Positions 55,415 through 60,789 of a DNA stretch of 64,000 nucleotides are shown here, piece after piece; within the stretch, counting starts at the first letter, position 1; each line of letters opens with the position of its first letter. The stretch is from Microbacterium faecale. Lineage in GTDB: Bacteria; Actinomycetota; Actinomycetes; Actinomycetales; Microbacteriaceae. The position numbers and the translations under genes were made by a program. The notes under the pieces are model-generated. The model did not search any database, had not been told where the DNA came from, and saw only the letters and a program-made list of their open reading frames with translations. Location: NCBI RefSeq assembly GCF_014640975.1, contig NZ_BMHO01000001.1, forward strand, positions 1,746,166-1,810,165, written 5' to 3'.

Positions 55415-56710
55415 TCACGCCGACACGGTCGGCAGCGCCGGATCGGACTTGCTGAGCGCGAGGGCGCGCACGGGCAGCTCGTTCCGCACGCGGAGGTGGT
55501 GCTCCCGCGCGGCGCGGACACCGGCCGCTCCCTCCGCCGCGGCGTCGATGTCGCCACCGTCGACGAGTGTCCTCACGAGCGTCCGTGCGTCGGTCGGTGC
55601 GGCGGCGTCGGCCGGGCAGACGATCTCCTCGGTCGCGCGATCGACCTCGAGGCGCCGGAAGGCGCTCTTGCGGCCTCCCGTCGACGACTTGTCCTGCGCC
55701 TTCTTCGCGACGGGGATCCACGTACCCGACGCGTCTTCGCGCGCGACGAGCTTGTAGACGAGCCCCGCCGTGGGGTAGCCGGATCCCGTCACAAGCGAGG
55801 TTCCCACGCCGTAGGAGTCGACGGGCGAGGCCGCGAGTGCAGCGATCGCGTACTCATCGAGGTCGCTGGTGACCGTGATGCGCGTGTCGTGATTGCCGAG
55901 GCGATCGAGCTGTTCCCGCACCTCGGCGGCCACGAGCGGCAGGTCGCCGGAGTCGATGCGCACGCCGCCGAGGCGCGGTCCGCCGATCTCGACCGCTCGG
56001 CGCACTCCCTCGGCGATGTCGTAGGTGTCGACGAGCAGCGTCGTGTCCTCGCCGAGCGAGGCAACCTGCGACCGAAACGCGTCTTCCTCGGAGTCGTGCA
56101 GGAGGGTCCACGAGTGGGCGGCCGTGCCCATCGTCGGCACCCCCCAGCGTCGCCCCGCCTCGAGGTTGCTGGTGGCGGTGAAACCCGCGATGTAGGCGGC
56201 GCGCGCGGCGGCGACGGCACCGTGCTCGTGCGCGCGACGGGAGCCCATCTCGGCGAGCGGACGATCGCCGGCCGCGATCGACATCCGGGCGGCCGCGGTG
56301 GCGATCGCGGAGTCGTGATTGAGAACGCTGAGCGCGAGCGTCTCGAGAATGACCGCGTCGGCGAACGTCGCCTCGACGGTCAGGAGCGGCGAACCCGGGA
56401 AATAGAGCTCGCCTTCGCGGTAGCCCGCAATGGATCCCGAGAAGCGGTAGTTCTCGAGGTAGCGCACCGTCTCATCGCTGACGACTCTCTCATCGCGGAG
56501 GAACGCGAGCTCCTCCTCGCCGAAGCGGAAATCGCGCAGCAGACCGAGCAGTCGTCCCTGGCCCGCAGCCACGCCGAAGCGTCGGCCGCCGGACAGGCGC
56601 CGACCGAACAGCTCGAACACGCACCGGCGATGCGCGGATCCGTCGCGCAGCGACGCATCGAGCATGGTCAGTTCGTACCGATCCGTCATGAGCGCGGTCG
56701 AGGGTGCCAT
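55415..56710 (-). CDS. pncB: Nicotinate phosphoribosyltransferase
   Basis: A 431-residue enzyme that makes nicotinate mononucleotide from nicotinate and PRPP, in the NAD salvage pathway. Family motifs are TDRYELTML at residues 9-17, the EAGRRWGVPTMGTAAHSW segment with the active His, VRIDSGDLP, and ITVTSDLDEYAI. The C-terminus lies beyond GGRKSAFRRLEVDR. The start is ATG 56710 because TAGAGT lies 7 nt upstream; the longer frame is not needed. It is divergent from murL, and only 56 bp separate the two starts. Confidence 0.93.
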   Translation of the reverse strand: MAPSTALMTDRYELTMLDASLRDGSAHRRCVFELFGRRLSGGRRFGVAAGQGRLLGLLRDFRFGEEELAFLRDERVVSDETVRYLENYRFSGSIAGYREGELYFPGSPLLTVEATFADAVILETLALSVLNHDSAIATAAARMSIAAGDRPLAEMGSRRAHEHGAVAAARAAYIAGFTATSNLEAGRRWGVPTMGTAAHSWTLLHDSEEDAFRSQVASLGEDTTLLVDTYDIAEGVRRAVEIGGPRLGGVRIDSGDLPLVAAEVREQLDRLGNHDTRITVTSDLDEYAIAALAASPVDSYGVGTSLVTGSGYPTAGLVYKLVAREDASGTWIPVAKKAQDKSSTGGRKSAFRRLEVDRATEEIVCPADAAAPTDARTLVRTLVDGGDIDAAAEGAAGVRAAREHHLRVRNELPVRALALSKSDPALPTVSA

Positions 56711-56717
56711 GACGGCT

Positions 56718-56723
56718 ACTCTA
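56718..56723 (-). promoter_or_regulatory. -10 box, leaderless type
   Basis: TAGAGT on the minus strand, with 7 nt to the ATG of pncB at 56710. Confidence 0.6.
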
Positions 56724-56752
56724 CTGGCGGGTCCACGCCCAGATCGCGCGTG

Positions 56753-56758
56753 TAGATT
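56753..56758 (+). promoter_or_regulatory. -10 box of murL-murD2
   Basis: TAGATT, with 8 nt to the ATG of murL at 56767. Confidence 0.5.
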
Positions 56759-56766
56759 TGACCGCG

Positions 56767-58101
56767 ATGGATACGGCATTCACGAAGATGCGTCCCCGCA
56801 TCACGCGATTCGAATGCGGCGAACCGGAGCTCGTCGGGGCCACGGTCCGGCTGCCCTATGCCGCGACCGGCGCTGACGGCGCCGGGTACAGCTTCACCGA
56901 GGAGATCGTCTTCCCCGGCGACGTCGCGGATGGCCCTGTCGCGAAGGGCCTGATTCGCCTGCTCTCGCTCTCGGCATCGCTGAGCTATTACAAGGCGTTC
57001 GCACCCGTTCCGTTTTCCGTGCCATCGGGACTCACTCCCGCCGAGCGACAGTTCGTGACCGAGCTGATTCGCAACGGGCTCGGAGAGTTCGCCGTCATCA
57101 ACGACATGCCGGAGGCGCTGGAGCCCACTGTGACGGGCCCGGAACGCGTCGCCGAGCCTGTCGGGAAGCCGGTCCTCGCCGAGCAGCGGGCTCTGATCGC
57201 GGTCGGTGGCGGGAAAGATTCCGTCGTCTCGATCGAGACGCTCCGGCGCGCCGACGCCGAGCTCGGCCTCGTCGCTGTCAATCCCCGGCTGCCGATCGAG
57301 CGCACGGCCGAGACCGCTGGGCTGCCGCTCCACAGCGCCACGCGCGCCATCGATGCCGAGCTGCTGCGGCTGAATGACGAGGGCGCGCCGAACGGGCACG
57401 TGCCGGTCACGGCGATCAACTCCCTCATCGCGCTCATCTCCGCCGTCGCCACGGGGTTCGATACGGTCGTCTTCAGCAACGAGGCGAGTGCGTCGTTCGG
57501 TAACCAGCGCTGGGCCGGACGCGACATCAATCACCAGTGGTCGAAGAGCGCCGACTTCGAACGGCTGCTCCGCGAGAGCCTGCCCGACGGATCTCCGCAG
57601 TACCTGTCGTTGCTGCGGCCGCTGACCGAGATCCGCATCGCCCGCGCGTTCGCGGGCATGACGGCGTACCACGGCGTGTTCACGAGCTGCAATCGCGCGT
57701 TCCGCCTCAGCGCTGCGGCGAACGCCACGTGGTGCGGTGACTGTCCGAAGTGCCGGTTCGTGTTCCTCGTCCTCGCTCCGTTCCTCACGCGCGAGGCGCT
57801 GCTGGAGATCTTCGGCGGCCGCGACCTGTTTTCAGACGCGTCGCAGCTGACGGGCTTCCTCGAGCTGCTCGGCGCCGACGGACTCCTGAAGCCGTTCGAA
57901 TGCGTCGGCGAACCCGACGAGTGTCGCGTCGCCCTCACCCTCCTGCGCGAGCACGACGACTGGGCCGGGCACCCGTTCTTCGAACGGGATGAGATCGCGG
58001 CGCTGGCGGCGACGGACGCGGAACGCGAGTCGGTGTTCGCCTGGCACGACGACGAGCACTTCCTGCCGCCGGCACTCGAGGCGGTTCTTCGTGAGGTTTG
58101 A
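56767..58101 (+). CDS. murL: UDP-MurNAc-L-Ala-L-Glu epimerase MurL
   Basis: A 444-residue MurL-type epimerase. In the family this ATP-dependent enzyme changes the terminal L-Glu of UDP-MurNAc-L-Ala-L-Glu to D-Glu, so peptidoglycan receives D-Glu without a free D-Glu pool. A PP-loop-like GGGKDS lies at residues 147-152 (ALIAVGGGKDSVVSIETL), and a cysteine cluster WCGDCPKC has Cys323, Cys326 and Cys329. Other family blocks visible are FSNEASASFGNQ and SLLRPLTEIRIARAFAG. ATG 56767 fits the -10 box; internal ATG 56788 is an alternative. The stop overlaps the start of the MurD-like ligase by 11 nt, so the two enzymes of the route are coupled. Confidence 0.85.
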   Translation: MDTAFTKMRPRITRFECGEPELVGATVRLPYAATGADGAGYSFTEEIVFPGDVADGPVAKGLIRLLSLSASLSYYKAFAPVPFSVPSGLTPAERQFVTELIRNGLGEFAVINDMPEALEPTVTGPERVAEPVGKPVLAEQRALIAVGGGKDSVVSIETLRRADAELGLVAVNPRLPIERTAETAGLPLHSATRAIDAELLRLNDEGAPNGHVPVTAINSLIALISAVATGFDTVVFSNEASASFGNQRWAGRDINHQWSKSADFERLLRESLPDGSPQYLSLLRPLTEIRIARAFAGMTAYHGVFTSCNRAFRLSAAANATWCGDCPKCRFVFLVLAPFLTREALLEIFGGRDLFSDASQLTGFLELLGADGLLKPFECVGEPDECRVALTLLREHDDWAGHPFFERDEIAALAATDAERESVFAWHDDEHFLPPALEAVLREV

Positions 58102-59389
58102 CGAGCTCAGCGGCCGCGACGTCGTCATCTGGGGTGCGGGCCGCGAGGGCATGGCGGCGCGCGACGAGCTCGCCCGGCGTGGCGTGGCGGCCACCGTCGT
58201 GGTGACCGGATCCGCGACCGCACCTGACGGCGTCGTCACCGGCGAGGAGGCACTCGCGCTGCTGGCGGACGCCGACGCGATCGTGAAGTCACCCGGGATC
58301 CCGCACACGTCACCCGAGTACGCGCGCCTGCGCGAGGACGGCGCACGATTCACGTCGTTGATGGACCTCTGGCTCGCCGAGAACGGTGACCGCGTGATCG
58401 CCGTCACGGGAACCAAGGGCAAGAGCACCACCTCGGCGCTGGTGCACCACATGCTGACGGCAACCGGTGCGACCTCGCGCCTCGCGGGCAACATCGGCAT
58501 CCCCGTCGGCGAGCCGGTCGACGTCGACTGCGCCGTCACGGAGGTCTCCAGCTACCAGGCGGCGGAACTGACGGCGTCCCCGCGGGTCGCCGTCGTGACA
58601 TCGCTCTACCCCGAGCATCTGCCGTGGCATGGCGGCTTCGACCAGTACGTCGCCGACAAGCTGCGCCTGGTCGCCCACGGCCCCGAGACCATCGTCGTGC
58701 CGGACGCCGACGGCGACCTCGCACGCCGGGTACGGGAGGTCGCGAGGGAGCAGTCGCGCCTCGTGTCTCCCTCCTCGCTCGGGATCACCGTCACGGACGA
58801 CGCACTCGTCTGGGCTGGCGTCGGCCAGATCCGCCTCGGCGAGATCGCGATGAACGGCACCCACAATCTCCACAACGCGGCGCTCGCGCTGGCCGCCGTC
58901 CACGAATACCGCGGCACACTCGATCGTGCGGCGGCACTCGGGTCCCTTGCGGGGTTCACGCCGCTCGCTCACCGGCTTGAGACGATTGCTTCGTCTGACG
59001 ATCGCACCTGGATTGACGACGGCCTCGCCACCGCGCCGCAGGCCGTCGCGGCGGCCCTCGTCAGCCTGCCCGCCCAGCGCATCGTGTTGATTGCCGGGGG
59101 AGCGGAGCGCGACGTCCCGTTCGCGCCGCTCATCGAGGCGCTTGCGCGCCGTGACGATGTCGACGTGGTCGCGATCGGTCCGGCGGGAGCGCGGCTCGCA
59201 GCTGAAGCGGAAGGGCGCTTCGACAGGATCCGCATCGCCCGTGACTTCGCCGACGCGTTGCGGCGTGCACGCTTCGTGACGGAGCCCGGCGACGTGATCC
59301 TGCTCTCGCCCGGCGCGCCGAGTTTCGACGAGTTCACCGACTACGAGGAGCGCTCGGCCGTGTTCCGGGCGGCGGCGCAGTCCGTCTGA
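58091..59389 (+). CDS. murD2: UDP-MurNAc-L-alanine--L-glutamate ligase MurD2
   Basis: A 432-residue Mur ligase that would add L-Glu to UDP-MurNAc-L-Ala for the MurL epimerase. The Rossmann-like N-terminal domain starts DVVIWGAGREGMAARDEL, the ATPase loop is GTKGKST at residues 107-113, and the central domain has MNGTHNLHNAALALAAV. The C-terminal domain carries PLAHRLETI. The canonical MurD signature NDSKATN is replaced by a DDGLATAP-type segment, which separates it from classical D-Glu-adding MurD. The GTG at 58091 overlaps the murL stop by 11 nt. Specificity for L-Glu is inferred from the pairing with MurL. Confidence 0.85.
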   Translation: MRFDELSGRDVVIWGAGREGMAARDELARRGVAATVVVTGSATAPDGVVTGEEALALLADADAIVKSPGIPHTSPEYARLREDGARFTSLMDLWLAENGDRVIAVTGTKGKSTTSALVHHMLTATGATSRLAGNIGIPVGEPVDVDCAVTEVSSYQAAELTASPRVAVVTSLYPEHLPWHGGFDQYVADKLRLVAHGPETIVVPDADGDLARRVREVAREQSRLVSPSSLGITVTDDALVWAGVGQIRLGEIAMNGTHNLHNAALALAAVHEYRGTLDRAAALGSLAGFTPLAHRLETIASSDDRTWIDDGLATAPQAVAAALVSLPAQRIVLIAGGAERDVPFAPLIEALARRDDVDVVAIGPAGARLAAEAEGRFDRIRIARDFADALRRARFVTEPGDVILLSPGAPSFDEFTDYEERSAVFRAAAQSV

Positions 59390-59476: not shown

Positions 59477-60205
59477 ATGACAACTCGCGCCGACGGTCGA
59501 TCCCTCGATGAACTCCGCCCCGTCACGATCGAGCGGGGGTGGAGCAGCCAGGCCGAGGGAAGCGCGCTCATCAGCTTCGGCGGCACGCGTGTGCTCTGCA
59601 CGGCGAGCTTCACGAACGGCGTGCCCCGCTGGCTCACGGGCCAGGGCAAGGGGTGGGTGACGGCCGAGTACGCGATGCTGCCGCGCGCGACGAACGACCG
59701 ATCGCCGCGCGAGAGCGTCAAGGGCAAAATCGGCGGGCGCACCCACGAGATCTCGCGCCTCATCGGGCGCGCGCTGCGCGCGGTCGTCGATACCTCGGCG
59801 CTCGGCGAGAACACGATCGTCATCGACTGCGACGTGCTGCAGGCCGACGGCGGCACCCGCACGGCGTCGATCACGGGGGCCTTCGTGGCGCTCAGCGACG
59901 CGATCGAGTGGGGGCGTGAGCGCGGCTACGTCGCGAAGAAGGCGACGCCGCTGGCCGACAGCGTCGCGGCGATCTCGGTGGGCATCATCGACGGGACGCC
60001 GATGCTCGACCTTCCCTACGAGGAGGACGTGCGTGCCGGGACGGACATGAACATCGTCATGACGGGATCCGGTGCCTTCATCGAGGTACAGGGGACCGCC
60101 GAGCAGGCGCCGTTCGACAAGGCGGAGCTCGATCGACTCCTCGACCTCGGCGCGAAGGGGTGCGCCGACCTCACCGCGCTTCAGAAGGAGGCGCTCGGCC
60201 GATGA
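59477..60205 (+). CDS. rph: Ribonuclease PH
   Basis: A 242-residue 3'-to-5' phosphorolytic exoribonuclease that trims tRNA precursors. Characteristic blocks are [20 protein letters not shown] at the N-terminus, [35 protein letters not shown] and [19 protein letters not shown]. Length and ends are normal. The start has an AAAAGGA ribosome-binding site about 5 nt upstream. The stop overlaps rdgB by 4 nt, a common pairing in actinobacteria. Confidence 0.96.
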
Positions 60206-60789
60206 CGCGGATCGTCCTCGCGACGCACAATGCGCACAAGGTCGCGGAACTGCAGGCCATCGTCTCTGCCGTCCGCCCCGACATCGAGGTCACCGGCTAT
60301 GACGGACCCGAGCCGGTCGAAGACGGCACGACCTTCGCCGCCAACGCACTGACGAAGGCGCGGACCGCCGCGCAGCACACGGGGCTTGTCGCGCTCGCCG
60401 ACGACTCCGGGCTCTGCGTCGACGTGCTCGGCGGTTCGCCGGGCGTGTTCTCGGCCTACTGGGCGGGGCACGCGAAGGATGACGCCGCGAACGTCGCGCT
60501 GCTGCTGGACCAGATCTCCGATCTCGCCCGCGACGAGGACCGTACAGCGCACTTCACCTCGGTCATCGCGCTCGTCGAACCCGGGGGAGCGGAGCGCACC
60601 GTGGAAGGCATCTGGCCAGGCCGCATCGCGCACGCCGCACGCGGCGAAAACGGCTTCGGCTACGACCCGATCTTCGTGCCCGAGGGGGACGACCGCACGT
60701 CGGCCGAGCTGACGCCGGCCGAGAAGAACGAGTCCTCGCACCGCTCGCGCGCGCTGCGTGCTCTCGTGCCGTTCCTCGCGGACCTGTAA
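60202..60789 (+). CDS. rdgB: Non-canonical purine NTP pyrophosphatase RdgB/HAM1
   Basis: A 195-residue enzyme that removes dITP, XTP and similar NTPs by hydrolysis to NMP and pyrophosphate. The start [15 protein letters not shown] has the family SGNxxK-like motif as THNAHK, followed by [42 protein letters not shown] and [10 protein letters not shown]. The ATG overlaps the rph stop (ATGA). After the stop comes a palindromic repeat region and then the tRNA-Leu gene. Confidence 0.95.

Follow-up and report, generated by a model that had tools for sequence, protein, structure and literature searches.

The MurD2-MurL pathway to D-glutamate (D-Glu) in peptidoglycan has been described in Xanthomonas oryzae, where the pair corresponds to XOO_1320/XOO_1319, and the function of orthologues from Micromonospora and Salinispora has also been demonstrated in vitro (Feng et al., 2017, cited in PMC8788868). 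According to PMC8788868 and PMC5808125, L-Glu is added by MurD2 and then inverted by MurL in an ATP-dependent reaction with AMP as a product; adenylation by MurL is put forward there as a hypothesis. PMC8788868 also names four residues by which X. oryzae MurD2 differs from Escherichia coli MurD: Glu197/Asp182, Arg358/Lys348, Pro433/Ala414 and Phe435/Leu416. In that account E197 and R358 form a specificity pair, and changing both switched X. oryzae MurD2 to D-Glu, while the K319T change in E. coli MurD permits the use of L-Glu.

Here we analyze a homologous gene pair in a 64,000-nucleotide stretch of the Microbacterium faecale genome (contig NZ_BMHO01000001.1, positions 1,746,166 to 1,810,165; the whole stretch is called the window below), along with the fate of murD in the division cluster (dcw) of this and other bacteria. 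The pathway is already known and the window pair is a further member of it; what goes beyond a first-pass annotation of this DNA is the locus swap at murI and the retention of a dcw pseudo-MurD. In our judgment it is probable that MurL-MurD2 is the sole D-Glu route of this organism, that the pair was swapped in horizontally at the murI site, and that the old MurD has been kept as a non-catalytic pseudo-MurD.

The murL-murD2 pair and the supply of D-Glu

The pair consists of the following genes:

56767..58101, + strand: murL, from the ATG at 56767 to the stop codon at 58099-58101, with GGGKDS and a Cys cluster and a match to NF041275
58091..59389, + strand: murD2, with a GTG start, 432 aa, overlapping murL and matching TIGR01087

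They overlap by 11 nt (GTGAGGTTTGA), as the first-pass annotation had it, murD2 beginning at 58091 and murL ending at 58101; an in-frame TTG at 56758 lies ahead of the murL ATG.

The window MurD2 scored 292 bits against the MurD model TIGR01087 (cut-off 212) and keeps the general Mur ligase residues, so its earlier description as a ligase lacking the classical MurD signature applies to the residues of D-Glu recognition, which do differ, and not to the family match. At the positions of E. coli D182, K348, A414 and L416 it carries E, R, P and F (4/4), and at that of K319 an L. Among 39 MurD2 rows (the window protein and 38 others), R was present in 39, E in 36 (D in the other three), P in 38 and F in 26; canonical intact MurDs had D, K and A at those signature positions in nine cases out of nine. 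All 39 rows also keep K115, E157, H183 and K198, which we take to be the P-loop Lys, the Mg-binding Glu and His, and the carbamylated Lys, respectively. These signature residues support the assignment of the window MurD2 as a putative L-Glu-adding ligase.

For MurL, the match to NF041275 reached 324 bits (E 9e-97, profile positions 35-444 of 447), which falls under the curated cut-off of 700 bits of this Xanthomonadales-named model, and no Pfam model was found in a search with the window protein. GGGKDS (residues 150-155) and the cluster C-x14-C-x2-C-x2-C formed by C311, C326, C329 and C332, with CGDCPKC ending at C332, were invariant at G150-S155 and at the four cysteines across an alignment of 36 MurL rows. 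The profile match and these motifs agree with the MurL-type epimerase that had been predicted from GGGKDS and CGDCPKC. The order of motifs is shared with QueC, as follows in MurL (protein P0001):

residues 150-155: GGGKDS (SGGxDS in QueC)
residues 212-221: the VP-containing segment, NGHVPVT
residues 311-332: SCN...CGDCPKC (SC...CG-C-C in both)

While this order is like that of QueC and the PP-loop ATP pyrophosphatases, the MurL-QueC profile score (24.5) was not above those of column-permuted controls, one of 40 being higher and a second within 0.2. A QueC-like PP-loop fold of MurL is therefore kept as a lead only. In a search of the PDB with the MurL profile, the motif region alone matched the PP-loop protein TtuA (E 0.002, 39 positions). 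As such a lead, adenylation by GGGKDS in the PP-loop fashion would fit AMP formation by MurL.

The genome to which the window belongs (3.12 Mb, 99.2% complete) gave no match to the PF01177 racemase family, for which a control search was positive in 10 of 14 genomes, and none to the MurI model TIGR00067. The best score with the D-amino-acid transaminase model was 30.8 bits (cut-off 277), and a TIGR01087 search returned MurD2 as the sole complete MurD-family ligase, with no second complete MurD. Since the searches turned up neither a MurI nor a D-transaminase above the cut-off nor a further complete MurD, these results support MurL-MurD2 as the only D-Glu route that can be recognised in this Microbacterium. 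The first-pass annotation had allowed for a sole or a second route and had named murI, a D-amino acid transaminase and a second dcw MurD as the genes to look for; the outcome favours the former alternative. The four signature residues likewise support its reading of the pair as a MurL-MurD2 module for D-Glu.

The murI site and the distribution of MurL

In MurL-negative relatives the gene order is pncB-murI-rph-rdgB, with rph and rdgB adjoining murI in 10 of 10 compared loci and pncB on its other side in nine of them (divergent in seven of the nine). The order pncB-murL-murD2-rph-rdgB was found in the window and in four other loci (L134-L137), so that murL-murD2 occupies the former murI site in the window. 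The flanking genes, named from their sequences, are:

55415..56779, - strand: pncB, nicotinate phosphoribosyltransferase, left edge of the replaced murI site
59477..60205, + strand: rph, RNase PH, right edge of the replaced murI site
60205..60789, + strand: rdgB, non-canonical purine NTPase, last gene of the conserved block

Within flanks of 1.5 kb, pncB adjoins murL in 10 of the 13 MurL-positive loci of the Microbacteriaceae, and the start of rph is reached at the edge of the stretch after murD2 in two (L008 and L052).

MurL was present in 13 of 199 sampled Microbacteriaceae genomes and PF01177 in 185. The latter was missing in 11 of the 13 MurL-positive genomes vs 3 of the 186 MurL-negative family members (p 7.5e-14). 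PF01177 is, however, too broad as a proxy for MurI, and since it also matches other racemases in MurL-positive genomes it was replaced by TIGR00067, which passed its cut-off in none of 39 MurL-positive genomes and in 11 of 14 hand-picked MurL-negative relatives. Three MurL-negative members of the family (G015, G062 and G176) have neither MurI nor MurL and do have a full-length MurD; one of these genomes is 0.9 Mb in size and one is 86% complete, and a transaminase, scavenging or an incomplete assembly may be behind this.

Within the genus sample, two of 99 genomes carried MurL. Named genomes hold at least 583 relatives of this protein, and the best 80, which were examined, span Microbacterium, Leucobacter, Canibacter, Nocardioides, Pimelobacter, Arachnia, Mycolicibacterium and Micromonosporaceae, among others. 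Microbacterium does not figure among the taxa that the MurD2-MurL review (PMC8788868) lists, and no paper linking MurD2 and Microbacterium was found in the openly accessible literature. One contig labelled Candidatus Saccharibacteria, from a metagenome-assembled genome (MAG), has a MurD2-like gene upstream of MurL and not downstream (L159); this contig could be mis-binned.

A MurL tree of 45 rows, including 31 of the 80 named proteins, grouped the window MurL with four others from Microbacterium (support 99/94), nested in a clade of 22 rows (100/99) with Leucobacter, Nocardioidaceae, Arachnia, Canibacter and a few others. Eleven other MurLs of the family fall in a separate 12-row clade (100/99) beside Micromonosporaceae (17 rows jointly, 100/99), and that of G184 groups with Mycolicibacterium (98/93). 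Since the family MurLs thus occupy three separate places, the tree is best read as indicating at least three acquisitions. Two of the three types sit at the murI site, the second with both flanks in L008 alone. In Micromonospora (L200) and Salinispora (L208), murD2 lies upstream of murL on the opposite strand, without an overlap as in Microbacterium.

The truncated MurD of the division cluster

Between mraY and ftsW, the place where relatives carry murD, the window's genome holds a relic:

G000:C1:2548233-2549240, - strand: dcw MurD relic at the mraY-ftsW site, 335 aa

It starts like a MurD, has GSDGTDE in place of GTNGKT and ends ahead of the C-terminal ligase domain, so that both this domain and the P-loop of a functional MurD are missing. 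It scored 60 bits against TIGR01087, and five scanned relics gave 32-155 bits (cut-off 212). Here mraY and ftsW lie 1,090 bp apart, whereas the gap measures 1,571-1,704 bp in the seven MurL-negative controls. A split MurD with its C-terminal domain encoded elsewhere was also considered and rejected, given that every other TIGR01087 match in the genome is either short or located at mur genes, and given the size of this gap.

The same site was examined in 33 MurL-positive genomes (14 taken by handle and 19 named) of Microbacteriaceae, Nocardioidaceae and Propionibacteriaceae; the division cluster was taken for 29 of 31 named MurL-positive genomes, that is, for all but G305 (a MAG) and G318. MurD-derived sequence was found there in all 33, truncated in 29 and of full length in four. 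All 29 truncated forms lack the C-terminal domain; in 27 of them the reading frame is unbroken and codes for 313-376 aa. Of the 29, six retain an intact P-loop, one the carbamylated Lys, one the Mg-binding His and two N138. In three genomes (G295, G304 and G310) the match to the MurD family continues beyond a TGA. In MurL-negative relatives, by contrast, the match runs from model positions 1-3 to 439-440 in 14 of 14.

The four full-length proteins beside MurL differ among themselves. Those of Nocardioides G300 and G301 (L261, L262) look intact, although MurI is under the cut-off. In G184 (L015 / L096), C replaces R302, A replaces K348 and A replaces N138, an apparent early stage of decay in which the D-Glu site has changed. 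The protein of G042 (L089:3741-5297) has lost the catalytic Lys and His and still passes TIGR01087 with 260 bits, so that automatic annotation would probably call it functional.

Truncation appears to have happened more than once. In a tree of the shared part of MurD (45 rows, 27 truncated and 18 full, two of the 45 being long-branched; the frame-broken relics of G195 and G314 were excluded from trees and 27-row counts), five Microbacterium relics adjoin the intact MurD of G164 (100/98), while the relic of G052 falls among intact relatives. The truncated state requires six changes on this tree, at least four of them forced by well-supported branches, and a single origin, with all truncated rows held together, was rejected by the approximately unbiased (AU) test (p-AU 1.6e-7). 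On the basis of this tree, truncation of dcw MurD arose several times.

Four sister pairs of relics end at the same place within each pair, and therefore their differences should postdate the truncation. By a simple counting estimate, the ratio of non-synonymous to synonymous change (dN/dS) was 0.25, 0.25, 0.27 and 0.29 in these pairs, vs 0.17-0.28 in four pairs of intact MurDs. Simulated neutral change gave means of 0.92-0.96, the lowest of 300 runs per pair being 0.58-0.64; a simulated run contained a mean of 2.3-3.4 stop codons, and 3-8% of the runs were free of stops. The relic thus shows signs of purifying selection in the four sister pairs.

This constraint is uneven along the protein (residue numbering of G106; dN/dS pooled over the four sister pairs). 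In the former catalytic centre (residues 121-240) the relics gave a dN/dS of 0.28 vs 0.16 in intact pairs, and four of six 20-residue windows had identities of 0.27-0.37 (0.54-0.68 in intact MurDs), with 0.41-0.44 (0.64-0.65) in the other two. In the block 241-300, dN/dS was 0.12 in relics vs 0.13 in intact pairs, and pairwise identity was 0.51-0.59 among the 27 relics vs 0.61-0.70 among intact MurDs. Twelve residues of this block (Y245, A259, V261, G264, R266, A267, P275, G281, V283, R290, R296 and A300) do not vary among the 27 relics, and neither does E302 just after it. MurD2 shows the opposite pattern: compared with intact MurD, its identity is 0.36 over residues 121-240 and 0.12 over 241-300, and of the 13 relic-invariant residues P275 is found in 24 of 39 rows and each of the other 12 in 0-4. 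MurD2 has thus assumed the part that disappeared from the relic and is without the part that the relic retains.

The relic could instead be an ordinary pseudogene on its way to being lost, with its open frame due to chance in GC-rich DNA and the low dN/dS predating inactivation. We regard this as unlikely, although several observations are in its favour and weigh against a retained pseudo-MurD. Two of the 29 relics (G195 and G314) are frame-broken, which fits decay or an assembly error; the match beyond a TGA in G295, G304 and G310 is what would be seen after a recent stop; intact (G300, G301), full-length altered (G184, G042) and truncated forms make up a graded series; and the former catalytic centre is relaxed. 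In addition, seven Micromonosporaceae and two Mycolicibacterium among ten MurL-positive genomes outside the three families have no dcw MurD, with 171-501 bp from mraY to the aligned ftsW start and a faint MurD trace in Longispora. The tenth, Parafrankia (G315), has kept a full dcw MurD and has a MurI score of 141 bits, close to the cut-off of 147. As for the selection analysis, four more diverged relic pairs gave dN/dS values of 0.21-0.58, the sequences compared by simple counting are diverged and GC-rich, and the truncation was judged by eye, from the sequence ends, to precede the split of the sister pairs. Against simple loss stand, however, the ratios of those pairs, which lie under the neutral minimum, the low dN/dS and invariant residues of the 241-300 block, and the frames still open in 27 of 29. 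What the nine genomes do indicate is that the relic is not universally needed: the pseudo-MurD is a trait of some lineages and not of the MurL-MurD2 pathway.

Two further explanations would keep the relic for other reasons, and both seem to us improbable. One is operon mechanics, by way of translational coupling between mraY and ftsW, an internal promoter or an RNA element. The first in-frame start lies 7-21 nt ahead of the mraY stop in 26 of the 27 open relics, as would suit coupling, and the arrangement is similar in MurL-negative relatives. However, amino acid sites are more constrained than synonymous ones (pN 0.06-0.17 vs pS 0.39-0.43), and MurL-positive Micromonosporaceae manage without such a frame. 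The other is a regulatory or substrate-binding subunit working with MurD2, for example by holding UDP-MurNAc peptides. All 27 relics retain the N-terminal fold residues G25, D35 and G41 (G106 numbering), as such a role would lead one to expect, but the residues contacting UDP-MurNAc, among which we take T16 and N138 of E. coli MurD to belong, are mostly lost. Least credible is a second route running beside a normal MurI-MurD pathway. In its favour are the mixed states found elsewhere, in Nocardioides G300 and G301, with an intact-looking dcw MurD beside MurL, and in Parafrankia, with MurD and a near-cut-off MurI alongside it. For the genome studied here it was rejected, as MurI, a D-transaminase and a complete dcw MurD were not found.

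Proposed explanation and comparison with known systems

We propose that the relic is retained as a pseudo-MurD after the exchange of an essential step. By homology to the published enzymes, MurD2 would join L-Glu to the UDP-MurNAc-amino acid delivered by MurC, and MurL would use ATP to adenylate this L-Glu at its alpha-carboxylate, releasing AMP, and invert it one way to D-Glu, the product passing on to MurE. In Microbacterium with B-type peptidoglycan, the substrate may carry Gly in place of L-Ala as its first amino acid. As to the order of events, murL-murD2 would have been acquired horizontally and have taken the place of murI at its locus; the D-Glu-specific dcw MurD, left with neither substrate nor catalytic task, would then have shed the ligase domain at its C-terminus together with the catalytic residues. 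Selection would have preserved its N-terminal domain and the outer portion of its central domain, whose most likely role is docking or scaffolding close to MraY, MurG and FtsW, a role in which MurD2 would be no substitute. Such a role is plausible because binding of MurG to MurD, MurE and MurF has been published, as cited in PMC6420597. The broader view is that in Microbacteriaceae, Nocardioidaceae and Propionibacteriaceae the old MurD was not discarded but repeatedly became a pseudoenzyme (about 313-376 aa, the N-terminal plus the central domain), and thereby exposes a second, non-catalytic job of MurD in actinobacterial cell wall synthesis. This job would be seated in the 60-residue block, which MurD2 lacks, and would probably consist in docking in the MraY/MurG/FtsW complex; we hold this view to be evenly balanced. 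No paper on MurD as a pseudoenzyme was found in a search of mainly open literature, and a search for truncated or inactive MurD brought up one title, on a MurD partner in Acinetobacter.

If this reading holds, these bacteria offer a natural swap of an essential cell wall step, with the states before, during and after it preserved in close relatives, and with the catalytic and non-catalytic parts of MurD separated, one held by MurD2 and the other by the relic. Should the pseudo-MurD be needed, Mur ligases would have a structural role that could be tested apart from essential catalysis. The results also widen the list of bacteria that would depend on MurL-MurD2, a pair that has been proposed as a narrow-spectrum target.

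Compared with the canonical MurI-plus-MurD route of MurL-negative Microbacterium and other relatives, the system described here uses the same murI and mraY-ftsW sites, but MurI is gone and the dcw MurD is left without its ligase domain and catalytic residues. With the MurD2-MurL system of X. oryzae it shares both enzymes, the four L-Glu residues and the lack of MurI and of a D-Glu-forming transaminase, while it differs in that the two genes overlap by 11 nt, sit at the murI locus and coexist with a retained, truncated dcw MurD.

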